A stretch of 64,000 bases of DNA from Aegilops tauschii subsp. strangulata. Taxonomy: Eukaryota > Streptophyta > Magnoliopsida > Poales > Poaceae. The translations under genes and the position numbers were made by a program. The stretch is from positions 498,944,601 to 499,008,600 of the forward strand of contig NC_053035.3 of NCBI RefSeq assembly GCF_002575655.3, written 5' to 3'. The notes under the pieces were generated by a model. The model was given only the letters and a program-made list of their open reading frames with translations. It was not told the origin of the DNA and did not search any database. Of this stretch, positions 29,831 to 64,000 are shown in pieces; within the stretch, counting starts at the first letter, position 1; each line of letters begins with the position of its first letter.

Positions 29831-30577
29831 GCCCCCTGTCCATGTCTCATGCATGTATTTCACCTGTATTTGTTCTGATTGCACTCTTGGTAGTCCAAAG
29901 TATTTGTCGCCCTGGCCTGGACGTCGCTCTCCTCCGAGAAACTTGATAAGACGATGCCGATCGGCCGGCCTAGTGGATGCAAGGAAGACATGGTACGCAT
30001 GCTAGTCCACTTGTCACTGTCCTTGAATGTTCATGCTGTAGGCACATTATTATTGTTGTCCTGGTCCTAAGATGTCACTTACAGTGGTTCAGACTTTTAT
30101 GTCTACTAGAGCAATGCCCGTGCGTCGCAACGGGATATAATAGTTTTGTTAAAGCACATCTAAATGTGATCTAAGTATTGCACATCTAAGTCCTATGCCG
30201 TTGATATACTATAGTATGTTAGCTTGTGTCTACCTTATATGTTGATCAGAAGTGATTTACCTGCCCATACTATGCAATTGTGTAAATAAATAATTATCAA
30301 ATTTTGCCTGTGATTTACTTTATATTTTGATCAGAAGTTTGGTGAGTAAATTAAAATGAAATTGGTTTAGAAGGTAAGTAAATTAAGATGATGATTATTA
30401 TACAGGGATGGTTGGACGAAGAGGTTGTAGAAAGAAAGGTGAAACGGGAATTTTACGTTTTTTTTTAAGTGGTAGAGATTAGTTTGGAAAACGTACTTCC
30501 TCGATCGCACAACTAGAAGCACGTACGCCACTATACTATTCCCAGTGGAGCCCTCATCACAACTCAGAGCAACAGCA
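29831..30577. other. Upstream region of the lectin kinase, with a Mutator-like MITE
   Basis: About 30104-30480 starts ACTAGAGCAATGCCCGTGCG, continues TCGCAACGGGAT and ends near TAAGTGGTAGAG, a terminus pattern I associate with Triticeae Mutator-like MITEs. That leaves only about 100 bases of non-repeat sequence before the ATG at 30578. A weak TATA-like CTATACTA lies at about 30533. Confidence 0.5.
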
Positions 30578-33243
30578 ATGGCTGAGCTGAAGCTATGCTT
30601 GTGCTTCTTGCTCCTCTGTGTACATGTCCATCATGCGACCGCTATCTCGTTCAGCTACAACTCCTTCCGCTCCGGTGATTTCAGAGAGGAGGATGACGCG
30701 ATGGTCACCGACGGCAGGATTGAGCTCGTTGGCGACGAGGCCGGCGGTCGAGCAAGGGGCCGCGTCCTGTACAAGCAGGCGGTGCAGCTCTGGGACGGCG
30801 TCAAGGGCGAGACGGCCAGCTTCACCACGAGCTTCAACTTCAGCATCCAGTCCCTGCCTGGCCGGAGCAGCACCCCCGGGCACGGCATGACGTTCTTCGT
30901 CGCGCCCTACATGCCCGAAATGCCGCAGGAGTCCTACGACGGCTGCCTTGGGCTCTTCGACGAGAAACATGCCCCGAAGAACGGGACGACGATTATCTCG
31001 GCCAACGCCTCCGGCAGCGCCAGCTTCGTCGCCGTAGAGTTCGACACCCACCGTGACGCGTGGGACCCCAGCAGCCGGCACATCGGCGTAGACGTGAACA
31101 ACGTCGACTCACGCGGCAACTTCAGGATCTTGCCGGAAGGCAGCCTCGTGGACGCCGGCGTGATGTCTTCGACGGTGACCTACGACAACGCCACGTCGTG
31201 GCTGGACGTCGTCCTCCGCGTCAGTGGTGCCAAGTATGCCCTCGGCGCCACCGTCGACTTGCGAAGCTTGCTGCCGGAGCAGGTCGCGTTAGGCTTCTCG
31301 GCGGCCACCGGTGATGCCTTCGGCAGCAGTCACACGTTACTCTCGTGGTCCTTCCACTCCACGCTCCCGACAAGGAACTACACGGCCCTCCCATCTACCT
31401 CGTCAACCAAGAAGGCCACCCTACCACTCATAGCCGGGGTTGCCGCCGCAGCCGTGGTGGCGCTCCTGCTCGCGGTCACCGTGGCGGTGCTGCTCCGTCG
31501 TGCGAGCAGGAGAAACAGGCAAACAGACGACAAAGACATGCTCGCCGGCGACATGACTCCGGACTCCCTCGATGCCGACGGCGATGAGCTCGGTTCCAGC
31601 ACGGGACCCCGGCCGATCCCGTACGCCAGCCTGGCGGCGGCGGCGAGGAACTTCGCGGAGGAAGGGAAGCTGGGGCAGGGCGGATCCGGGTCGGTGTACC
31701 GGGGCCACATGAAAGAGCTCGGCGGCCGCGATGTCGCGGTCAAGGTATTCCTGCGAGGGGCGTCCTTGGAGGGGAGGAAGGAGTACAGGTCGGAGGTCAC
31801 CATCATCAGCAGACTGCGTCACCGGAATCTTGTGCAGCTAATCGGCTGGTGCCATGGCCGCAGGCGGCTGCTGCTGGTCTACGAGCTCGTCCACAACGGC
31901 AGCCTCGATGGGTACCTCTACAGCAACACCAAAAACGACGTTCTGACTTGGCAAGTTAGGTACGCATGCTTTGAGCCACGTGCACATCCATATCGTTCCA
32001 GTCCTATTCTTTACTTACTTTTCTACCTTGACTAAATGAACTAGTCCCTCTCCCATAATATAAGAATGTTTTTGATACTACGTATGCTGAAAATACTTAC
32101 ATTACAGACTAGAAAAATCGTCGTATCATTTGAACTGTCCTTTTCTAGCTTTGATTGAGTCCATTGAGATCTAAGTTCTTGGTCGATGCTAGTATTTCTT
32201 AGGCTTTTCTTAGCATTACTACTATTTGATTATGCGGTTTCGATATTTCTTAGGCTTTTTCAATGGGTGTCGCTAGGTCTTAGTCGACTAAGATTTAACC
32301 AAGTCTCCATCAAGTGACATAATATGCTAGAGAGAAACAGAAAAACTGAAAACAAAATTTTGCATGGATCGCAATGTAAGATCTCACGAATATAGAATCA
32401 ACTGAGACACTAGACTTAGCAAGACTGTTTTCCAATAATAACATGTCTTGCTTTTTTCACTATCAGAACTCGGCACTTTACCGAGTGCCCGGCAATGGGA
32501 GAAATGCACTCGACGAAAGGTTTGCTGAGTGTTAGACTCGTCAAAGGGAACTCGACAATGAAATAGTCTAGACGGAACAGAGTCGAATGTAAAAGAAAGG
32601 CACTCGACAATGAAATAGTCTAGACAGAACAGAGTCGAATGGTGCCATAGCGGTAGTTTGCCGAGTGTTGCACTCAGCAAAAGTTGAGGGGGTTTCTTGA
32701 GTGTTACACTTGGCAAATCATTTTAGCATAATTAAAGAAAACGCGGGCGACCTCAGCCTAGCCCAACAATCCTACATGGGGTCGCCAGGATGCCTGGCGG
32801 CGTGTTGGGAAGATCATCACGGTAAGGATCCCCTCATGCATCTTCGGTTGTGCGACATAAGCAGAGGGCAACGGTCGCGGGGTCGCCATCGAGCTCGGTG
32901 GAAGTGGCTTCAAGCCCAACAAAGCTCCACCTCCATTAGGATAAAGCCGTCGCGAGGTCGGGCCCCTGGATGCACCGGAGATGGCCGCTGCCACCGCGCG
33001 TAGCTGCCCCATGAAGAGAGAGGTTATGGCCGTGCATGCACGTCTATTCACTGTCTCTGGGCGTTGCTGGCCCCTGAGGAGGGAGCAGCTGGCTCTAAGA
33101 TGAGAGTGAGCATCATGGTCAAGCGAGTGACACGACCGCGGGTGAAATTCTAGGAGGCGGCCCTAGATGTTCGGCAGTGGTAGTGACATCATGCCCCCAT
33201 GGTCTTTGGCGACGTCGTCTCAAGAATAGAGCAGCGATTGGGT

Positions 33244-33310
<67 letters not shown>

Positions 33311-36300
33311 AAAGAAGGGAGAGAGAGAAGAGAGGACGGAGAGCGTGAGGGAGAGGGAGAGGGAGAGAGGAATAGGTAGCCATTGGATCTGTGGGAACCA
33401 ATAGATACCCCGCGCGTTGCCGCGGGATTTCTTGTGGTATGCTGGTATGAGAAAGGAAGAATTAAAATGCACATTGCAACTGTTGGCATAATGCACAATA
33501 TGCATGAAAATAATTGAACGGGCAAATAGGCCCGATGGTAGTAATAGTTTTTTCGTGTAACTTAAAGCCTCATATGCTTGATACAGAAGGAAATAGTAAG
33601 GTTTTGGATCCAATGACCGCGTCAGATTATTTTGTAAACATGGGAAAATAATTTTATCATCAATAAATATGGCATGCAAGATACATGGGCAAGATGGAGA
33701 TTCTATAACATGTTTGATAGATAAGGGGGAACTTACTTTAGCACCTTGACGGGTTAAGACTTGAGATTGTAGAAGCTACAGTACAGAAACCACTCCAAGG
33801 GAGATCAACAATCCAATTCGTATATAAAGAGGAAAGTGATACTGAAAACGAAAAGTAAAATACCAAAATAGCTACCTACCTAGCTGCAGTCACCAACAAC
33901 AGCGGCAAAGCAATTATTACATTGCTTGACTAATGGAGTATACAGTATGCTGTCCAGAACCACAAATGAAATAAACGATGTGATAAATGGCGACACATGC
34001 ATGTTTAGAAGTCAGTTACCAGAGGCATTGCATGCATGCGTGTTTAGAAGTCAGTTACCAGAGGCATTGCATGCATGCGTGCATGAGCTTCGTGCAGTTG
34101 TTCCCAAGTGTAGATCCGATGGTTGTCGTACACTAATCTAGTGTATCCAACGGCTAAATTCATTTGGGTGATATGGCTCAAGGAGAAGCTAGAGAATTCC
34201 TAGTAGTGGGGGCTAGCTATTTAGATATAGTAGATGTCTGTGGGAATGAAACGGTGGGGAGGTATGATCCATGGAAGGGTGTCTTTACCCAGTGTCTCTG
34301 AAAATGCACATGAAAACATGTTTGTATTTTCTTTCTCCTCTTTTCTCTTCTTTCTTTTCTTTCTTTTCTTCTCTTCCTTTTTGTGTAAGGCCTAAATATA
34401 GACTCACTAAACACAAATAGGAATTTGTTAAAACATTTTCTTGAACTGTTTCACGGACCTGCAGTTCAAAATTGAATTATATTAACTAAATATCTAGGAA
34501 ATGCACTTAATGACTTAAATATAGCAAATGGTTAAAAAATGCTAAATTACATGTGTCATGTAATGGTGTATTTCGAATGTAGAAAAAAGAATCATGGCCA
34601 CCGGATGAAGCAGGGATCGCTTCACCTTTAAACCTGATTTGTTCCCTTCTAAAACCACAATTCTTTCTAGGAGATGCAACTTTTATGAATCCTTCTCAAA
34701 TTTTTACCACAGTTTCTAGGGGTCATATAATGAAACCTTCCCAAATTTGATGTTTTTTAGAATTCGTTCGCATTTTCAGAATTAAAAAACCAATAACTTC
34801 CATCTTTGCGGTCAAGTCTTGGCATCCTAATGTTTGAAATTTCTTTACTTTTTGGGGGATGGCTTAAACATAGACAGAAGAATAGAAATAGGATCTTTCA
34901 ACCCTATTTTACCAACCTTTCATGCCCTTATAGTTCAAATTTTAATATATTCACTAATACTTAGAAAATGCACTTGATTACTTAAATATAGCAAACAGAC
35001 CCCGAAAAATTTCTAATTTTGACATGGAACATCTCATGGTGTATATTGTGTAGAATTTTTTTCAAGGTCAATAGATGAAGCATCAATCACCTAGCCTTCA
35101 AATGTGATCCATTCCCTATTGAAACTATGATTCTTCCTTGGAGATGGTTCGATTTCTAAGGAGTTTACGTCACAACTTTTACGGAAGTTTCTCAATTGTT
35201 TACCACCGCCTTTAGGGATCATATAATGACATGCCAAGTTTGATGTTTCTTGGACTTCGTTTGCACTTTTAATAAAAAACAAAAAACCAATAACCTACAT
35301 GTTTGGGACAAGTCTTGACACCTTCATGTTTGGAATTTCTTTTATTATTTTTTAGTATAGCCTAAACATAGACTCAAGAATACAAAGAGGATTTTTCATA
35401 GACGGTCCACACTCATACACGACTAAAAGCTATGAAAGCAAGTCAAGCAGTGCTAGATGATGATAAAATAGAGGCACATCCTTCTTTTGTAGAGTTAATT
35501 CTTGGATTGGACATTCTAGCGGCATTCAGAACTTAGTCGGAGTGCTTGGATGAAATCTGATTTTGCTTGATTGTGCCCTTACTTTTGTTATCAGATACCA
35601 GATCATTCTTGGACTGGCGTCTGCCGTGCTGTACCTCCACCAAGAATGGGATCAATGCGTCGTCCATGGTGACATTAAGCCGAGCAACATCATGCTGGAC
35701 GAGTCCTTCAACACCAAGCTAGGCGACTTTGGCCTGTCGCGGCTCATCGACCACGGCATGAGCTTGCAGACAATGACCGCCATGGCTGGTACCCCGGGCT
35801 ACCTCGACCCAGAGTGCGTCATCACCGGCAAGGCGTCCACGGAGTCCGACATGTACAGCTTCGGTGTCACGCTGCTGGAGATCGTGTGCGGGCGGCGACC
35901 GATGGCGCCGCCCAGCGCCGGTGCGAGGGACGGCCAGGTGTTCCGGCTGCTGGAGTGGGTTTGGGACCTCTATGGCAGGGGCGCCGCCCTCGACGCGGCT
36001 GACGAGCGTCTCGGCGGCGTGTTCGACCGGTGGGAGATGGAGAGGGTGGTAGCCGTTGGGCTGTGGTCCGCGCACCCAAACCCAAAGATGAGGCCGGCGA
36101 TGAGGCAGGCCGCCGAGGCGCTGCAGTCAAGGAAGTTCAGGATGCCGGTGCTGCCGCCCAAGATGCCGGTGGCCGTGTACCTGCAGCCTTTCGGAGATTC
36201 CGCCATGGAGTACGGCGACAGCACCACCACGGTCGGGTCCGGGGTTACCACGCAGCTGCAGTACTCGTCGACCAGCTGTACAACAGCGACGCAATCTTCA

Positions 36301-36354
36301 AATACTAGCATGCCGGCGGCTGTAAGTGAGGAGTTGAACCCCAATATAGAGTAG
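30578..36354 (+). CDS. L-type lectin-domain receptor-like kinase (class IX-like)
   Basis: Two exons, 30578-31959 and 35595-36354, joined at GT/AG within an Arg codon, give 713 aa. Order: signal peptide (1 to about 22), legume-lectin domain (about 23-262, with VAVEFDTHRD at 151-160), one transmembrane helix (about 282-307), and a cytoplasmic Ser/Thr kinase (about 363-650). The kinase has a glycine loop at 366-371, Lys389, Glu406, HGDIKPSN at 485-492, DFG at 505-507, and GTPGYLDPE. The catalytic loop is HGD rather than HRD, so it is a non-RD-type kinase. The protein should sit in the plasma membrane with the lectin outside. Such kinases sense carbohydrate or other extracellular cues, often in immunity. 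The real start is the ATG at 30578; a GTG at 30545 in the same frame is not a credible start. The sequence looks intact, with a 3,635-base intron packed with repeats. Confidence 0.93.
32459..32720. mobile_element. CACTA-like terminus in the lectin-kinase intron
   Basis: Begins CACTATCAGAACTCGGCACT and continues with repeated TTTGCCGAGTG and CACTCGGCAA variants. It could be the 5' end of a GCCGAG-type CACTA element. No matching 3' end was found inside the intron, so it is likely a truncated copy. A partial Stowaway arm (CCCATAATATAAGAATG) lies upstream at about 32052-32075. Confidence 0.6.
33245..33302. repeat. (GA)n microsatellite
   Basis: About 29 uninterrupted GA dinucleotides, followed by an imperfect GA-rich stretch to about 33370, within the lectin-kinase intron. 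Confidence 0.95.
33400..34235. mobile_element. Mutator-like MITE candidate in the intron
   Basis: Starts with CCCCGCGCGTTGCCGCGGGA, the terminus style of the MITE at 30104, and ends near GATATAGTAGAT. Limits are approximate and the target duplication is not clear. It includes the 39-bp direct repeat at 34002-34079. Confidence 0.4.
34002..34079. repeat. Perfect 39-bp tandem duplication
   Basis: 34002-34040 and 34041-34079 are identical (TGTTTAGAAGTCAGTTACCA, then GAGGCATTGCATGCATGCG). Perfect identity points to a recent slippage or repair event. Confidence 0.9.
34389..35400. repeat. Diverged ~480-500-bp tandem repeat in the intron
   Basis: The landmarks GCCTAAATATAGACTCA, a GAAATGCACTTnATnACTTAAATATAGCAAA-type block and AAACCAATAAC recur in the same order. 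Units start at about 34389, 34863 and 35362, the last incomplete. Divergence is substantial, so the duplication is old. Origin unknown. Confidence 0.75.
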
Positions 36355-36799: not shown

Positions 36800-38640
36800 A
36801 TTAATATTGAGATGTGAACTGGTCTTTTCTTTGGAAGAACCAAAAAGGGGAAGAGAATAATTATATACAGTTGTTTGGCTGTGAGATTGGTTCTCTCCCG
36901 TTTAGTTATCTAGGAATACCGATTCATCACCGTAAGCTAACAAACAAAGAGTGGAAGTGCATTGGGGACAGATTTGAAAAAAAGTTAGTTGTTGATAAGG
37001 GAAACTTATGTCGTATGGTGTTAGGCTAGTAGTCGTGAACTCGGTGCTTACGAGCTCGTCTATGTTCATGCTATCGTTCTTCAAAGTAAAAATAGGGATG
37101 CGGAAAAGACTTAATTTCTATATATCTATTTTTTGGCAGGGTGGTGAGAATTAGACAAAATATCGCCTAGCGAGGTGGGATATATTGTGTCGACCTAAGG
37201 ATCAAGTTGGTCTGGGTAATGAGAATCTTGAAATAAAAAATACATGTTTGCTTAGTAAATGGCTTTACTGTTTATCCATCGATGAGGGTGGAGTGTAAAT
37301 AAAGTTATTGTGTGACATCGGAAGCCCCCCCCCCCCCCCCGGCAAGAAAAAAGTATTTACATTCTAAGACCTTGTCACAATTAACGGCCCAATCAAATGA
37401 CTAACCCTTTTGGAAGGGTTTGATGGGGACTAAGGTTGCCTCCTTCAATAGGGGTACATTCATTATTAAAAATGGGCGCACTACGTGATTTTTAGAGGAT
37501 ATTTTGTTGATGAATAAACCTCTAGCCCTACAATACTCAACACTTTATAGTACTGTGCAACATAAGGAGGCTTATGTTAGTACGATATTGGGGCCGGTCC
37601 CCTTAAATGTCCAGTACAGGCAGGCTCGGGTTGGGGACAGATGGATTGCTTGGCTTCAATTAGTTAAAAGGCTGGTGAAGGTTACCTTATCTAATGAGCA
37701 TGATATGTTCCAATGGAGGTTGACTGCTTCTAAAGTGTTTTCGGTTAAAGTTAAATCAATGTACATAGACTTGATTAATGTTGGGCCGGTTTTTCGTTCA
37801 ATTCATATTTGGAAAACCAAAGTTCCTTTAAAGATTAAGATTTTCATATGGTTTCTAAATAGAGGTGTGATTCTTACTAAAGACAATTTAGCTAAGCGCA
37901 GATGGAAGGGTAGTAAACAATGTTATTTCTATGATCAAGAGGAGATGGTTCATCATTTTTGGCATGCTTGTTTGCCCACTTTTTGTGTCGTACAATTCAT
38001 GTGTCATTTAATATACCTCTACCTACTAGCGTGTCAAATTTGTTTAGTAACAGGTTAGTTGGGGTGGAGCCTAAGACTACGATGTGAATCCGTGTGAGAG
38101 TATGTGTATTGCTTTGTGCTATTTAGAACTGTAGAAATGATTCTGTGTTTAACACAACAAAGATTCACATTTTTTTGTAGGTTATCTATAGAGCTTCATG
38201 ATGGATCCGCATGTGCTACTTACTACACCATGAGGAAGCGAGGCGGTTTATGGTCTATTGGTGCAATAGTTGGGATACAATAGCACGGGCTACACATAAC
38301 CGGTTAGGATAGTGGTCGAATAGTATGATATGTGTGTACAAAAGTACTCTTCTAGTCCTGAGCTCAAATGAGCTCGGGTGAACAGTAAAATCGAAAATAT
38401 TGAATTTTTTTAGTGACAAACACTAACAAATGTTTTCAAGGCTTGCAAAATTTCATCGTGAGATGACATTTGTAGAAGCCGTGGCAAAAAAAAATTCAAC
38501 ACACCAAAATGCTGTTGGAAATGACATTTTTGGAGCATCGATTTTGTTGGCTGTAGCAGTTTTCATTGTAATAATTTCTTTCAGTACATGATCTTAACAC
38601 TTGTAACCTTTTAATAAATGGATGTGTGCATCAAAATGGC
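36800..38640 (+). mobile_element. LINE (L1-type) ORF2 3' half
   Basis: Translation across frames gives the C-terminal half of L1-type ORF2: end of reverse transcriptase (LFGCEIGSLPFSYLGIPIHH), then after frameshifts the linker (LLNKPLALQYS-like, VGDRWIAWLQLVKRLVKV) and the zf-RVT domain (HIWKTKVPLKIKIFIWFLNR, RWKGSKQCYFYDQEEMVHHF). A C-tract at 37325-37341 and several frameshifts interrupt it. The 5' half is missing, the usual result of incomplete reverse transcription. The 3' UTR ends near 38640. Confidence 0.88.
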
Positions 38641-45197: not shown

Positions 45198-48100
45198 TCA
45201 GTGCTCCGTTGGCAGATGTTCTTCTACAACTGGCTCAGCCTTCGGCAGTTCAACCCTTTCATAGAAAAGCATGTAGGCCTGACACTCAAGTACCTGTTGA
45301 AGCGATACCTGTGTGATGCTCTCGTCGTTTGCGCAAAACCAAGAGGGAGTGCCGCTGCTCTCCTGTTGCTGGCCTCCAATTTGGCTTGCTCTCACATAAG
45401 CAAAATTGTGTCCTTCATGCAACTTTGGCCCACTGTGTACAATGACAGCAACCAGACGATATTTGTACTCAACATCCTCCGCCTGCCTGAAAATCAGAGG
45501 AAAATAATTTAGTTGCCAGAATTTTTTGCTTGAAAAACGTTGTTATGCCCACTGAGATCATAAGAGACCTGATATTTCAACAGGCTAAAATTTAGCTATA
45601 TTAAACTGACTAAAAGTGTATAGTGGCGTACCCAGGGTCCATGAACTTTGTCATATCAAGAGTATCCTGAAAGCTCACATGTTCTTCCAACTTGTCTGCT
45701 TTATCAGTGTGGGAATAGTCGAATCTCTTCAGCTGGATGGTTAGTATGGGTGCCGCCTTGGTAATGCGATATTGCACTGTTGCAGCTCTGTATATCTTCT
45801 CTTCCTCTTTCTGTTCTCTATGGCTCTCTTCCATTTGATTTGAGTTGCTATCAAGCATAGGTAGCTTTCCGTTGTTCTGATTCGGTGTTCTTGTTTGTTT
45901 GTCAGTTTGATGGCTGGATTCCCCCTTTTCATATGTTTTGTTCTCCGACTGTTCAGGTTGGCCATCATAGTCTGATGTATCTTCTTGGTTCAAAGATGCA
46001 TTTCTAGAAGCAGCAGCAGCTGAACAGTGCATACAGTGCCAATCCTTGATCTCCCCAGTGGCATAGAAGTCCAAGCAGTCCTCGATTGATGCAGGCCTCT
46101 TTGGTGGTATTGCCAAACTGAGATCAAGGTACTCGCCACCACTGGTAACTGATGTGTGCTCACACTCTTTGCTAGAGACATGTTTAGCGACCTCGCTGTA
46201 GAAGAGTGACTCAACCATTGTATGTTCCTCATTGTTCAACCCATCTAGCAAGGAACCAAGCATGTTATTGCTATCTTCCATCACGCCAAGTTTGAAATCT
46301 GATTTCATTTTGCACATATATGAGAAGAATTTGTCTGGCATCAGCACACCTTCAGCACCACTTGTATTGGTTGTCATTCTGAAAAGCTTCTGCAGTTCCT
46401 CACCAAGGTCCCCTGTCAAAGCATCATGTCCTAACATCCTTGCGCGCAACTTATCAAGTGCAAGGAGACTCTGCAACACCGCATTGAAGTAACATGTGTT
46501 CCCGCCATTCCACATCCCTCTGACCACCACAATGTCATATAGACCTTCCACTAGCCATAAGTTGCTCTTCTCAATTCCACAATGCCATAGCAATGCCCAG
46601 AAATAGGTTATGAATTCCCCTCCTGACTCAAGGCACTTCTTGTGTACCTCTGCATTCCAAGTGGGGGCAATGTGTACTAGTAAATCTGCCCATACCCCGG
46701 ACAAGATCTCCCAGCAATCTTTTTGAGACTCACCAATTAGTTGTTTTCCCAGCATTGCACCTAGTCGCACAACATCTTCCTTTCTCATGACGTCGTCAAC
46801 ATCTTTGGTGGCCTTTTCTGCTTCTTCCATCAGTTTGTCATACCTGCTCTTTAAGGAGTCACAGTTCTTAAGAATATCATCACGGGATCGTGTCACAGTT
46901 TCTTGTAAGACCATCTTGGGTACATTAAAGCTGTCGGGGATCACGTCAGGCTTTGAAACTAGCAAATATGCACAGTACCGAGACAAGCTATTCGCAGTGA
47001 TGTACATATCATGGAGCTCATCAGGCAACCTCCCTGTTACTTTCTTCTTTTCCTCTGTCTTGTTGTCCACATCCAGGAGGTATGGTTTCGATGAGCAGCA
47101 ACTTGTGAAGTACGACAAGATGAAGTTCAGGAACCCATGTTTGCTTAAGTCGACATCATGGCGTTGAGCAAGCTCCATCTCACAGAGGCTGGTTGCAATG
47201 TGCCACACAAGAATTACATGGGAGCACGTGGGCAGGTCGTAGCAGGCCCAACGATACCCCTTCCTTCGGTCACAGTCTGCACCAGACAGCGATATGATGG
47301 CCTTGGACAGAGAACGACCCCTAATGATGGTCTCTTCTTGATTTCTGTTAGGATTATCTGGCTGATCACGTACGATGCCAGGAGAGCTTAGCTTCTCTAG
47401 GCTCATGCGGAGCTTCTCCAATGCTGCCAGTGTGACACATTCTGGCACATCAATGGCGCTGTGGAGTGTTGCTCCATCGTCCTTCTTTGGCGACATTCCT
47501 ATGGTTATGTAGTGGAGAAAATTCCAAATTCTTGGTTTGTTATCGTATGACTCCAGAAACACATACTGGTCAATATGTCCATGCCACAGCTTACTAGTTA
47601 TCCTGGATTTGAAAAAGGATGATATTGTGCCTTCCATGCATCTGTTTCTAGTGCGCTCTTCCTTCCGTTGTGCATACATGCACACAAGGAGTAATCTAGT
47701 CCAGTTTGAGACTAAGTAGCTGACCATCTCCCAGATCTCTTTGAACAGCATAAAAATCATGAATACCCAGGTGATGATCATGTCAACATTGACCCCATGC
47801 ACCACTCGAGCCCGATCATTCTTTGGGGGCTTATAGACCTTATGGATATCCACAGCAAGCCAGCAGACAACACCGAAGGTCACTGTGGAGAGAAGCAAAT
47901 TTGAGAAGAGAGAAAGGAACCCACACCAAAACACCATAGGGTAGCGGGTGTTGAAGTAGTCGTTTACGAAAGAGAGTTGCAGCTCCATGATCCTGAAGGC
48001 ACGGCTAGCGTTCTGCTCCTCAAGGATCTTATTCTTAACTAGCTTTCGGTTAATGTGGAAGAGTTTTTGTTGCAGTGTCACATCCTCTAGCCTGCACCGA

Positions 48101-49035
48101 AGCAATCTAGACAAGGCGAAGGCTAGAGAGAGATCCTTTTGATCATTCCCCTCATTGCTGTCCTGGTCTAACAGATGCCTGTAACATCCCCAGATCTTGT
48201 CTAGGGTGATCAGTGTTGATCTCCCTGGACGCGGACGACGACCACGCCTAGCTTTCTTGACATTCCGGGCAGTATCGATATACATGGCATACTGAGGCTT
48301 CTTGAATTTGATGCTCTGTTTGGTTTCTCCATAGACCAAGTATTTGTATCCTGCCATATTCTCTGGGTTGCACTCCTCAGGTTTCCAGTTGCTACTGTGA
48401 GAGCCGGCACGCATGTGCTCTGTAACGACCTCTGAACTCTTGCCATGCCAGACAGATTTGACTGTCAGACTATGCACATAGAATCTGTACCCGCTCTTCA
48501 GTATCTGCAGAGCCAAAAGCGACCATAGTGGAACTGCAAACCTTGAGTCGCTCGACAAGTTCAAGAAGGCTGATCCCAGAAGTTTCACCACGTTCCTCCA
48601 CTCTATGAACCGTCGCCCATGTTGGTCATGAACACCATATCCAGAGATGAAATCGATGTTGTAACGGAAACTAACAAGCACGAGGCCCCAAACTGGGAAC
48701 AGCTGATTCAACAGTCGATTCTTGAACTTCGCTGTTTGCATGGCCCCCAGCAGGTATACGACAATGGAGTCAGAGACGGCATCCAAGATGCTAAAGATAG
48801 TTGCCATCTTTGTGTTGTGGATGTTGCGACGAAAGACATCCATGATGAACATCACAAAGAACAAGAGTGTGACCAGGACTACAAGAATCTCAATCCGAAA
48901 CAGGATGTATGTCTCCTTATTCAGCATGACGAAGAAGGATGCCACACCGTCGCGGATGTCTTGGATGCCCATCGTTTTCTTAGCTTGCTTGTGTTCGTTC
49001 CTATCCTGCAAGGCCCTTTCATCAGAGATATTCAT
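45198..49035 (-). CDS. DUF4220-DUF594 membrane protein fused to a ubiquitin-specific protease
   Basis: Exon 1 (49035-45632) and exon 2 (45486-45198) join at GT/AG to give 1,230 aa. Residues about 20-830 are a DUF4220/DUF594 protein. It has hydrophobic helices near 43-66, 77-98, 110-125, 365-398 and 417-435, long cytosolic-type loops, and a C-terminal DUF594 motif (GGEFITYFWALLWHCGIE, 805-822). About 15 residues later a peptidase C19 domain begins. Its Cys box GNTCYFNAVLQSL has Cys848, it has a partial zinc ribbon (Cys1001/Cys1004), and it has the KRF strand at 1103-1105. The His box GHNFAYVR (His1161) and Asp1189 lie in exon 2. The USP half resembles plant UBP1/UBP2-type enzymes without their N-terminal zinc finger. 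GHN replaces the usual GHY. Predicted role: a membrane-anchored deubiquitinase of unknown substrate. The junction lies inside exon 1 with no stop or frameshift, so a gene-prediction artefact is unlikely. Confidence 0.88.
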
Positions 49036-49237
49036 TGTAAATAAAAATCTTTAGAAAAACGACTTCGAAAAATGTGGTGTTAGAAAGAATGGAGTATGTG
49101 CCTATGGGGGTTGGACAAATCACGTCCTTCTCTAAATTTTGTAGAAGTTGCGGCACTGTTTTGGTCAATTTGGCTGATTCGGAATGATACTATTTTTACA
49201 GTAAAAAAGTACGCTCCTGTATGTAAGTGTTGCTCTT
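49036..49237. other. Upstream flank of the fusion gene
   Basis: AT-rich. No clear TATA box or other element recognised. Confidence 0.4.
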
Positions 49238-59228: not shown

Positions 59229-61874
59229 ATTGGTATCAGATCAAGGTACTCCCTTGTTCTGTGTGATTTTGGTTTAACCGCCTAGAGTTTTAGTTATGTC
59301 GACCGCAGGTATGATCAAGGTCTCTACTGGGTGTCCTACCTTCGATGGGACGGACTACCCCTACTGGAAGAATAAGATGCGAATGCATCTTGAGGCAATT
59401 GATAACGATCTCTGGTATGTTGTGGAAAATGGTATTCCCTCTGTCTCACCCTCACTGAACGCTACCGATGTGAAGAGATTCAAGCAACTCGATTCTCAAG
59501 CGAAGAATATCATATGTGGCCATCTGAGCAAAGGACATTATGGAAGAGTGAGTGCTTTGAAAACTGCTAAGCTTATCTGGGATAGGCTGTCCAAAGTGAA
59601 TGAAGGAGTCTCAACTCTGCGTGACTCTTGAGTTGATGTTCTTCACAATCTCTTCCACCGCTTCAAAAGACTCGACAATGAAAATGTTCAACAAACCTTC
59701 GATCGCCTCACTGACATCTCAAATGAGCTTCAAGCGCTTGGTGCCACTGACATCACCGACCATGAGGTGGTGAAGAAATTGTTGAGATTGCTTGATTCCT
59801 CATTTGATACTCTGGCATTGATGATACAAGAACGTGTTGATTACAAGTCACTTGATCCCGCTGATATCCTCGAAAGGCTAAATACTCATGAGTTCCAGCT
59901 TGCTGAAAAGGGAGACCTCTATGGTTCGAGCTATGGCAGATCACGTGCACTGAAGGCCAAGGCAGTTTCTGAGTCTGAAGATGAAGAGTCTGGCAGCAGC
60001 CTTGGTGATCCTGAAGAACTGAGCCAGGAACTAGCACTGCTCGTGAAGAAATTTCAGAAGTTCTCAAGACATGGTCGCTTTGGAAGATCCTCAAGGAGTA
60101 ATGATTCCTCATCCAGTGACTACAAGAAGAGGCTTTGTCACAAATGCAAGAAACCTGGACACTACATTCAAGATTGTCCTCAGTGGGAAAAGGAATCAAA
60201 GAAGAAGAAATACAAGGATTATAGTTCTGATGATGCGAAGAAAAAGAAGAAATCCTCAAAATCTTCATCATCAAAATCCTCAAAGTCTTCATCTCACAAG
60301 AAGAGCAGCTCCAAGAAGGCTCGGGCATTCATTGGCAAGGAAATGGACTCTGAAGCTGAATCTGAGGAACATGAGGAAGAGGAGGCATCTGAGGAGTCCA
60401 AGTCTGGAGTAGCAAGTCTAGCGCTCGCTACTGCATTCGTCAGCAAGTCTATCTTCAACTCTGAAGAAAATGGCTTCACCAACACGGCTGATGAAGGCAA
60501 TGATGACTACGCTCCCACCTATTGCCTTATGGCAAAGGGTGCCAAGGTACTCAAATATACCTCCTCTGAATCTAGTGAGAATGAATCTGATGAAAATCTC
60601 AAGCCCAGCTACTCTAAACTTGCTAAGATTGCTGTGAAACAACAAAGGGATTTTGAAAAGGTTCAAATATGCTAGACAAAAGTGATGATATGTTGGGTGA
60701 AGAAATGGATCGCACTAAAACCTTGACTGAAAATCTCCAAAGACTTCAGACTAGGTTTGACAACCTTCAAGGTCATCATAACACTCTCTTATCTGATCAT
60801 GAGAAGCTTTCTTATGAATTTCTTCAAAGAAAGCAAGATCTTGAGAAGCTAAGAGTGAGTTATGAAGATCTTCAGAAGGAGCGCGATTCATTACTTGCTC
60901 AACAAATCAGCGCTGCTCAGGAAGAATTTGTTCCTCCATGTTTGAAATGCATTGAACGTGAATCTGTTAATTCTTCACCTGAATGTTCAAATGCTTCAAA
61001 TGCTACAAATTCTTCAACTGTCTCTGCTCTCACTAATTCCTCATCTAAGGACATTGCTAGTTTCACTGACGATGCAGGGCTGAAGGAATTGTACATGCCA
61101 GGCATGTACAAAAGCCTCAAAGGGCATCGGACTATTTGTGATGTGCTTAAAAAGCAGATCCTCAACAGGAACCCTAGGAAAGAGGGTATTGCCTTTGAGA
61201 GGAAACTCAATGCTGATGGTACATATTAGAAGCCTGAGCAGTACCCCAAAACCTCATGGGTTGCTGCAAAGGGACCTCCAGTTGATCCATCTAATTTATC
61301 TAGCTTTACATGTGAATCTTCTCATTCTTCTGATGAGTCATTTGACTCCAACTATAAACTGTTTAAAAATCAGAATTGTGAAGTATTTGCTAGATATGTT
61401 GGCACTAACTGCAGGAACGGTTCTCCTATGAAGAAAATCTGGGTTCCCAAAAGGTGCCTTGAAAGTCTTCAGGTGAATGTCCTCATGACACCACCTGTGA
61501 AGAATAGGAACCCCCAATCAAATTCTTCATATGGACCAAATTCTTCATATGGATCCAAGTCCTCATACGGATCGAATTCCTCACGTGGATCATATTCCTC
61601 AAAAGGATCAAAGTCCTCATATGAACATCATCGTGCTAACAACTCTGTTTCGCAGGGAAGAGCTAAGGGCTATGAATATGAGCATTATTCTTCTAATCAT
61701 TATGTTCATAAGTCCTCGAAGAATTTCTCTGCTTATTCATATGCTTACCCTAACTCCTCTTATGTGAAACGAAATGGATTGGCTTCTATGCCACCTTTCT
61801 CGTATGGAGCTCGCAGAGTGATGAACTCTTTGCCACCCCTTCAGATGTGGGTGGTGAAGAAAAAGAACTAATCT
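59229..61874 (+). pseudogene. Copia gag region (disabled)
   Basis: Gag starts at the ATG at 59296 (FDGTDYPYWKNKMRMHLEAI, a UBN2-type gag start). It is interrupted by an in-frame TGA at 59629-59631, continues in the same frame to 60675, shifts frame, meets another in-frame stop at 61227-61229, and continues to 61871. It includes a CCHC zinc knuckle (CHKCKKPGHYIQDC, from 60136), a Ser/Lys-rich tract, a coiled coil after 60700, and a Ser-Tyr-Gly repeat region encoded by 18-base units around 61525-61625. The long spacer after the zinc knuckle suggests the SIRE/Maximus side of Copia. Not functional as written. Confidence 0.85.
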
Positions 61875-62110
61875 TTTATGCAGGGTCAGGTCTCCAGACG
61901 TACTTTAACGTCTGAAGAATTTGCTGGAGACCTGAAAAGTGCCTGAAAGGACGCAGGCTAATCATGAAGAAATGAACTTTCATTTCTCACGTCCTCATAC
62001 TGTTTTTAACTATTGCATTGCTTGATGAAATTGGTCTGATGAATTGTGATGTCATATTCTTCACTGATGAAGTATATGAAGTTCGTAAGCTGCACTAATT
62101 CATCTGCAGG

Positions 62111-64000
62111 ATGATCAACCCAAAGCCACTGAGTGGGTCCTCGATAGTGGATGTACAAATCACATGACTGGTGACAAGAATCTATTGATGGATGCTCCCT
62201 TATCACCATTGCATCTGAAGCATATCATCTTCGCTGACAAAGGCAAAAGTCAGGTATTGGGTCTAGGTAAGGTTGCGATCACAAAGGATCGACACATGGA
62301 CAAAGTCATGCTTGTCGAGTCCTTAGGATACAACCTCATGTCTGTCTCAATGCTTTGTGATCTTGATATGGTTGTTGTCTTTGGAAAGTATCGTTGTGTT
62401 GTGGTTATGGAAGCTGACAATTCCAAAGTCTTCGAAGGCTTTAGGAGAGGAGACTTGTATATTGCTGATTTCTCAACAGGACCGCAACCAGCCGTGTGCC
62501 TACTTGCAAAAGCTTCAGAAGGCTGGCTATGGCATCGACGACTTGGTCATGCAGGCATGAGGAATTTGCACACGCTTGGGAAGAAGAAGCATGTCATGGG
62601 CATTGAGAATGTCAAATTCCTCAACGATCACTTGTGTGGAGCTTGTGAAGCTGGAAAGATGACCAAGGGTAAGCATCCAGCGAAGACTATCATGACCACT
62701 ACTCGACCATTTGAATTGCTTCATATGGATCTCTTCAGTCCTAACCATTACTCAGCAGTCACAAATGACGCATCTCTCTATGGCTTTATTATTGTTGATG
62801 ATTACTCTCGATACACATGGGTACAGTGTTACAAACATGAAGTGCAGGAAGTCTTCAAACGATTTTCCTCGAGGGCTTCAACCAACTTTGGTGTGAAGAT
62901 CAAGCACATCAGAAGTAACAATGGAACTAAGTTCAAGAATTCTGGTCTTGATGACTATCTTGATGAACTTGGTATTACTCATGAGTTATCTGCTCCTTAC
63001 ACTCCTCAGCAGAATGGCGTCATGGAGCGCAAGAACAAAACTCTTGTTGAGATGGCTCGCACTATGCTTGATGAGTACAAGACGCCTCGTCACTTCTGGA
63101 TCGAGGCAATTTATACTGCGTGCCACATCATCAACAGGGTATATCTTCACAAATTCTTCAAGAAGCCTGCCTATGAACTCCTCACTGACAAGAAACCCAA
63201 TGTGAGTTATTTCAAAGTCTTCGATGCTAAATGTTGGATTAGAGATCCTCATCACAATGCTAAATTTGCATCGAAAGCACATGACGGTTTTATGCTTGGT
63301 TACGGAAAGGACTCGCACACCTACAGAGTCTTCAACAACGTTCTTCACAAGGTTGTTGAAACTGTAGATGTGTGGTTCGATGAAACTAATGGCTCGCAAA
63401 GAGAGCACCTACCCTCTGTGATAGATGAACCAGCACCTGAGGAAACTATCAAGTTCAAGGCTACCGAGGATGTCATTCCTACCAAAGAATCTGCTGAAGA
63501 ATTCATTCCAGAACGTGAAGAACGTCGAGCTAATGCACCTGAAGAAAATGCTGAAGAAAATGGTGCTGAAGAAAATGCTGATCAAATTCCTCGACGACAA
63601 CCTGCTCATCCTCGCGTTGCACAAGAAGTGCAAGTTGAAAAGATCATCGATGAAATTGAAGCACCAGGTCCTCTCACACGCTCAAAAGCTTCACATTTAT
63701 CTAACTTTTGTGGGCACTATGCTTTTGTCTCTATCACAGAGCCCACTAAGGTAGATGAAGCATTTCTGGAGCCTGAGTGGATTCAGGCCATGCAAGAAGA
63801 ATTACATCAATTCAAACTCAACAACGTCTGGGAACTGGTTAAACGTCCAGATCCTCGCAAGCACAATATTATTGGCACAAAGTGGATCTACCGCAACAAG
63901 CAAGATGGAAATGGCCTTGTGGTGAGGAATAAGGCACGGCTTGTAGCTCAAGGCTACACACAGGTTGAAGGAATTGATTTCGATGAAACTTTTGCACCTG
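62111..64000 (+). mobile_element. Copia pol: protease, integrase and start of RT
   Basis: One frame is open from about 62111 to the window edge. Protease motif WVLDSGCTNHMTG lies at about 62131. The integrase zinc-binding HHCC region begins WHRRLGHAGM, and the core starts LLHMDLFSP at about 62717. The second catalytic position is AAT/AAC-coded Asn (codon 62917-62919, in RSNNGTKF) where Asp is expected. Glu is present in VMERKN (63024-63026). The RT start (GTKWIYRNKQDGNGLVVRNK) is at about 63877. The rest lies beyond the window. With the broken gag, the copy should be unable to move on its own. Confidence 0.88.

Follow-up and report, generated by a model that had tools for sequence, protein, structure and literature searches.

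The window analysed here, a stretch of 64,000 nucleotides of contig NC_053035.3 of Aegilops tauschii subsp. strangulata, carries on its minus strand, between positions 45198 and 49035, a gene whose product joins a DUF4220/DUF594 protein to a ubiquitin-specific protease (USP). This gene is a real Ae. tauschii member of group G15 of the grass UBP proteins, and its product is best read, from its sequence, as a membrane-tethered USP with an intact catalytic triad. The fuller reading that we favour, of a membrane-anchored and probably catalytic USP with altered recognition of the ubiquitin tail, a role in immunity and a domain exchangeable between proteins, we regard as about evenly balanced between right and wrong. 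The fusion as such is already known; new here are the change at the contact with the ubiquitin tail, the signs that paralogues have exchanged halves, and a case of the same USP type on a nucleotide-binding leucine-rich-repeat (NLR) protein.

The minus-strand frame 45610-49050 is open across 1146 codons, and joining 45632 to 45486 removes a phase-correct GT..AG intron of 145 bp and gives a product of 1230 residues followed by a TGA stop. A public uncharacterized protein of Ae. tauschii subsp. strangulata (P0001, 1209 residues) equals residues 22-1230 of this product letter for letter, which means that the public gene model has the same splice and begins at Met22 (48972). The open frame, the splice and the identity with P0001 bear out the coordinates, splice phase and catalytic residues Cys848, His1161 and Asp1189 of the original prediction, which had been made from the sequence alone. 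The features of the gene are the following.

45632..49035, minus strand: exon 1, encoding DUF4220, DUF594 and the N-terminal part of the USP (frame and splice; start at 49035 in the original prediction, or at 48972, Met22)
47551..48783, minus strand: DUF4220 (PF13968), residues 85-495 (Pfam E 9.3e-69; helices in the model; hydropathy)
46573..46731, minus strand: DUF594 (PF04578), residues 769-821 (Pfam E 2.6e-19)
45632..46518, minus strand: N-terminal part of the USP (UCH, PF00443), from residue 840 (Pfam E 1.3e-25)
46492..46494, minus strand: catalytic Cys848 (translation, alignment)
46264..46266, minus strand: Asn924, in box 2, where nearly all plain USPs have Glu (alignment)
45487..45631, minus strand: intron of 145 bp inside the USP, GT..AG (spliced translation)
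45198..45486, minus strand: exon 2, encoding the C-terminal part of the USP with the His box and Asp, and the TGA stop (spliced translation, Pfam)
45408..45410, minus strand: catalytic His1161 (translation, alignment)
45324..45326, minus strand: catalytic Asp1189 (translation, alignment)

The matches to DUF4220, DUF594 and UCH are far beyond chance. The Pfam scan of exon 1 included seven intronic codons read on, all domains lying above the cut-off, and the remainder of UCH is encoded by exon 2 (Pfam E 2.5e-14). The two DUFs occur in the order that defines membership of their family; DUF594, originally placed at residues 805-822, is present with a wider span. The DUF4220 part contains four clear hydrophobic segments and up to seven helices of membrane length in the predicted model. 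In the C-terminal part a UCH profile coincides with a USP fold, as expected of a ubiquitin-specific protease (C19), the best PDB match by sequence being USP16 and the top Foldseek match USP30. Pfam finds in the window protein no zf-UBP domain, one of which is present in P0035, of the UBP1/2 type, and no NB-ARC, leucine-rich repeat (LRR) or other known signalling domain. The linker between DUF594 and the USP is very short, with a BLAST gap of 8 that is common to 6 of the 31 fusion proteins described below; in 22 of the 31 the gap is 60-197.

A database search with residues 760-1230 gave 503 matches among 6393 candidates, and the best 120 were examined. The same domain order, for which the original prediction had proposed a search of grass proteins, recurs in 31 of these (P0001-P0012 and P0014-P0032), which contain UCH with DUF594 and/or DUF4220, P0005 being without DUF4220. 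They come from Aegilops, Triticum, Hordeum, Brachypodium, Avena, Festuca, Oryza rufipogon, O. nivara, O. brachyantha, Leersia, Miscanthus and Urochloa, and so from both BOP and PACMAD grasses, wild rices included. With three Pfam domains, one frame through the junction and recurrence in many grass genomes, the predicted fusion is real. It stands once in the window: ten query proteins detected no second copy of the DUF or USP part elsewhere in the 64 kb at an E-value of 1e-4. The position of the intron looks conserved across the fusion relatives. Of the 11 fusion rows that lack exon 2, five (P0011, P0012, P0014, P0028 and P0029) stop exactly at the intron, five stop slightly past it, and P0024 stops before it. 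Spliced exon 2 is present in P0004 (1217 residues, contigs of up to 4084 bases) and P0022 (1283 residues, contig of 4265 bases), whereas P0028, taken from the same source, breaks off at the intron; this suggests, without proving, that the first two are cDNA contigs. One of the shortened rows, P0012 (1174 residues), is the public model of a second Ae. tauschii fusion paralogue, and its missing His/Asp exon is probably a shortfall of annotation.

The original prediction knew of no described protein joining the two parts, which is wrong. In the available portions of PMC6747111 (2019), UBP group G15 comprises two bamboo and two Brachypodium proteins (Bradi2g14560 and Bradi4g15430) with DUF4220, the moso bamboo pair having three transmembrane segments. 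Those of PMC8212830 (2021) describe wheat TaUBP1A.1, 1B.1, 1D.1 and 1D.2 as containing DUF4220 and DUF594, and state that both are absent from Arabidopsis and rice UBPs. Among the literature matches whose text was examined, the fusion was met in these two papers only. A maize survey, in the part seen, places TaUBP1A.1 in group 1, unlike the G15 of the wheat paper (PMC11097515). The window protein combines DUF4220 and UCH in one chain, and its USP groups with that of a named G15 member: P0001 and P0017 (BRADI_4g15430) share one USP clade with support of 100/100.

That clade belongs to a tree of 69 USP rows (31 fusions, 37 plain USPs and one NLR; P0033, with two USPs, was omitted), in which a branch supported at 100/100 has all the fusion rows, together with the NLR row, on one side. 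A DUF tree built by a quick method from 80 rows (30 fusion and 50 DUF-only, P0005 being too short to include) places the fusions within a single 50-row group that also has 20 DUF-only rows. The distribution of fusion and DUF-only states on it needs 5 changes, at least 4 of them forced, a count that cannot separate gain from loss. Two of the close paralogues seem to have lost their USP: P0061 stops in the linker, and P0060 after about 22 residues of the USP. The simplest history suggested by these trees is a single joining event, after which the USP was lost several times. Separate fusions in each grass lineage are not favoured, the fusion USPs with the nested NLR row occupying one side of a branch. 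Nor did a pool of standalone USPs of the fusion clade emerge from a second, USP-only search, which admits proteins of about 222-707 residues and gave 7 matches among 4103 candidates, all left outside the tree: P0121, P0123 and P0124 are similar but incomplete, P0122 retains DUF594, P0126 is a truncated fusion, and P0125 and P0127 resemble other USPs.

The catalytic residues of the USP are retained. The window protein holds the full set of Asn843 (oxyanion), Cys848, His1161 and Asp1189. Of the fusion rows lettered at each position, all 30 retain the oxyanion Asn and all 30 the Cys, and His is present in all 20 and Asp in 19 of 20; the degenerate P0032 has neither the Cys box nor the Asp, and the alignment of its His is doubtful. 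On the reading that we favour, the DUF4220 part would anchor the protein in the membrane, as its modelled helices suggest, and the USP would hang from the DUF C-terminus, most likely on the cytosolic side. There it probably remains able to cleave ubiquitin, or a tag resembling it, by means of Cys848, His1161 and Asp1189. Its recognition of the ubiquitin tail is probably altered, because none of the fusion rows examined has kept the Glu that in other USPs pairs with ubiquitin Arg72 in a salt bridge. The most likely targets would be ubiquitinated membrane-proximal proteins, trimmed during immune responses. In wheat, the available portions of PMC8212830 report that salicylic acid induces TaUBP1A.1 more than 6-fold, and that its silencing leads to more severe symptoms and more coat-protein transcript of Chinese wheat mosaic virus (CWMV); the window gene may share this role.

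Several points weigh against that reading, the first being the ubiquitin contact itself. At the box-2 residue three positions after Asp, none of the 31 fusion rows has Glu (N in 20, H in 5, I in 3, and T, L and S in one each) and the NLR row P0013 has H, whereas the plain USPs have Glu in 35 of the 36 rows lettered there and Val in the remaining one. A box-2 Glu contacting ubiquitin Arg72 is common in C19 proteases, though not strictly defining, and the window protein has Asn924 in its place. In USP47, according to the accessible text of PMC10516900, Glu182 salt-bridges Arg72 and Asp179 binds the backbone there; Asp921 and Asn924 were matched to this pair by the Asp-x-x-Glu spacing and the USP16 alignment, with no superposition inspected. 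The complete USP of the original prediction stands as regards the oxyanion Asn and the triad, and falls short at this Glu. Directly after the catalytic His, 14 of the 20 lettered fusion rows have Asn and 2 have Tyr, as against 33 of 36 plain rows with Tyr, and with both changes ubiquitin binding may be poor or abolished. The DUF4220-DUF594 part has no PDB sequence match at an E-value of 1 or better, and its best Foldseek match (E 0.13, root-mean-square deviation 25.9) is not a confident one; such poor matches give no function and do not establish a new fold. TaUBP1A.1 is predicted in the nucleus and chloroplast, not the membrane, in the portion of PMC8212830 available. The evidence from its virus-induced silencing comes from a single gene and a single study, and the 300-bp fragment used could have silenced paralogues as well; TaUBP1A.1 is, moreover, a presumed orthologue of the window gene.

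These changes could instead mean that the USP fold is kept for binding ubiquitin or ubiquitin-like proteins, or for docking other proteins, with little or no proteolysis. The loss of the Arg72-contact Glu throughout the fusions, the loss of the Tyr after His in 18 of 20 lettered rows, the absence of the first zinc-ribbon Cys in 25 of 31, and the existence of close paralogues without a USP (P0060, P0061) would all agree with such a pseudo-protease. It is nonetheless unlikely in our view, since every complete fusion row but P0032 has retained Asn, Cys, His and Asp, in BOP and PACMAD grasses alike. The first zinc Cys is moreover missing from 11 of 37 plain USPs, and because of this its loss is not a mark of decay.

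The two halves of the fusions have conflicting histories. In careful trees built for each half from 30 fusion rows and four outgroup rows, the Oryza proteins P0020, P0023 and P0028 have a DUF half that joins the Triticeae P0001 type (100/100), and Leersia P0021 has one that joins the Bradi4g15430 type (100/99), whereas the USP halves of the same four proteins form a single clade (100/100) beside the Bradi4g15430 type (96/95). Forcing the halves to agree costs 98, 180, 194 and 212 log-likelihood units in four approximately unbiased (AU) tests, with p-values from 2e-56 to 1.2e-4 that are overstated, the groups having been picked after the trees were seen; the log-likelihood gaps are still large. 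The halves of P0016 also fall with different paralogue types, outside the AU tests. Leersia P0021 is a public gene model that may itself be a chimera of neighbours, and the contigs behind P0028 and P0016 are no longer than 6288 and 5030 bases, respectively. Because the DUF and USP halves give conflicting trees in Oryza and Leersia, USP modules have probably been exchanged between paralogues, by gene conversion or module swapping.

A further relocation of the USP is suggested by P0013, a protein of 1748 residues from contigs of up to 6201 bases, which contains Rx_N, NB-ARC, winged-helix, LRR, PP2C and UCH domains. A further search (65 matches) retrieved 12 other proteins of NLR type with PP2C, including ones from Hordeum, Lolium, Triticum, Aegilops, Dasypyrum, Dichanthelium and Oryza, and among the 13 the USP is present in P0013 only. 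Its match to four aligned NLR-PP2C proteins stops at residue 1352-1365, and from the motif ATSEH on (residues about 1353-1748) it resembles the linker and USP of Brachypodium P0010; in the USP tree it is nested in a 15-row fusion group with Triticeae, Brachypodium and Avena rows. P0013 looks like a case in which a USP was captured along with part of the linker, a chimeric contig being the other possibility. The literature matches listed for NLR-USP proteins (15 of 302, with thin coverage of subscription papers) concerned, by title, mammalian NLRP3 or USPs, and a second search gave no match.

The conflicting trees and P0013 are also what might be expected if the USP acted as a sensor of USP-targeting pathogen effectors, or as their decoy, displayed on a membrane protein as integrated domains are on NLRs. 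For a stripe-rust locus of Brachypodium a DUF4220 gene has been put forward as a candidate, and a DUF594 gene is induced in infected maize roots; the portions of these reports that were available mention no USP for either. Such a bait would not need the catalytic residues, yet these are retained; P0013 is a single sequence, and the window protein lacks NB-ARC or any other known signalling domain. We consider this explanation doubtful. The comparison with integrated-domain receptors in the original prediction thus holds for the discordant halves and the shared USP type of P0013, and fails for the missing NB-ARC. A bolder proposal, which we put forward tentatively and think improbable, is that the G15 proteins act as receptors or regulators at the membrane and carry their USP as an integrated domain that can be exchanged, one that was re-tuned, swapped between paralogues and once captured by an NLR-PP2C protein. 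If so, the USP would have been re-tuned away from ubiquitin Arg72, perhaps toward another ubiquitin-like tag or a bait, and grasses would have built one and the same altered USP into two immune-type scaffolds that are not related to each other.

That the gene is a decaying duplicate without function is very improbable. The family is variable, with truncated or degenerate copies (P0060, P0061, P0032), and against P0004 the low-confidence insert (91% identity) is more conserved than the N-terminal half of the USP (75%). The window gene, however, has no stop or frameshift and an intact triad, and the insert diverges faster than the USP N-terminal half in 8 of 10 pairwise comparisons, with one tie and the P0004 case reversed; barley P0003 shares 83% and 88% identity in the USP halves and 87% in the DUF part, as against 79% in the insert. 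An annotation or assembly fusion of two neighbouring genes can be dismissed as next to impossible, even with the evidence for the window gene drawn from DNA and gene models: a single frame runs through the junction, and 31 proteins from many genomes have the same order among the matches listed.

Elsewhere in the window there are three further features.

30476-32035 and 35554-36354, plus strand: lectin receptor-like kinase (Lectin_legB and kinase), its kinase domain split by about 3.6 kb; the edges of the gap look more intron-like than like a disruption
37489-38058, plus strand: zf-RVT match, probably left over from an element of the non-LTR (long terminal repeat) type
59632-63999, plus strand: gag, integrase and the beginning of the reverse transcriptase of a Copia-type retrotransposon, which continues past the window end

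DUF4220/DUF594 proteins are numerous in plants and their molecular function is unclear, OsSAC1 being one with a known mutant phenotype, and a lineage with a recognisable enzyme offers a handle on what they do. The loss of the Arg72-contact Glu with the triad kept is a sharp, testable prediction of specificity. The apparent module exchange and the NLR case link the family to the evolution of immune genes, and the antiviral result in wheat, the one functional result met in print for a fusion, fits.

Among known systems, the G15 UBPs are the closest: in them, too, DUF4220 (with DUF594 in wheat) is joined to UCH, and there is no difference of kind, the window copy being set apart by its very short DUF594-USP linker. 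The nearest plain grass USPs listed, P0034-P0042 (42-46% identity over 31-37% of the query), are presumably of the UBP1/UBP2 type, similar to human USP16; the window protein differs from them in lacking zf-UBP, in possessing DUF4220/DUF594 and in the loss of the box-2 Glu. OsSAC1, compared by description only, has the same two DUFs, with no mention of a USP. The membrane-anchored human USP30, the top Foldseek match, and plant UBP27 have the USP fold in common with the window protein. Both are anchored by a single transmembrane segment, unlike the window protein, whose putative anchor is a large multi-helix family protein; a literature search for UBP27 at the mitochondrial outer membrane gave no match. 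NLRs with integrated domains differ from the window protein, which has no NB-ARC or LRR match, and resemble it in an apparently exchangeable C-terminal domain, the same type of USP being borne by the NLR-PP2C protein P0013.
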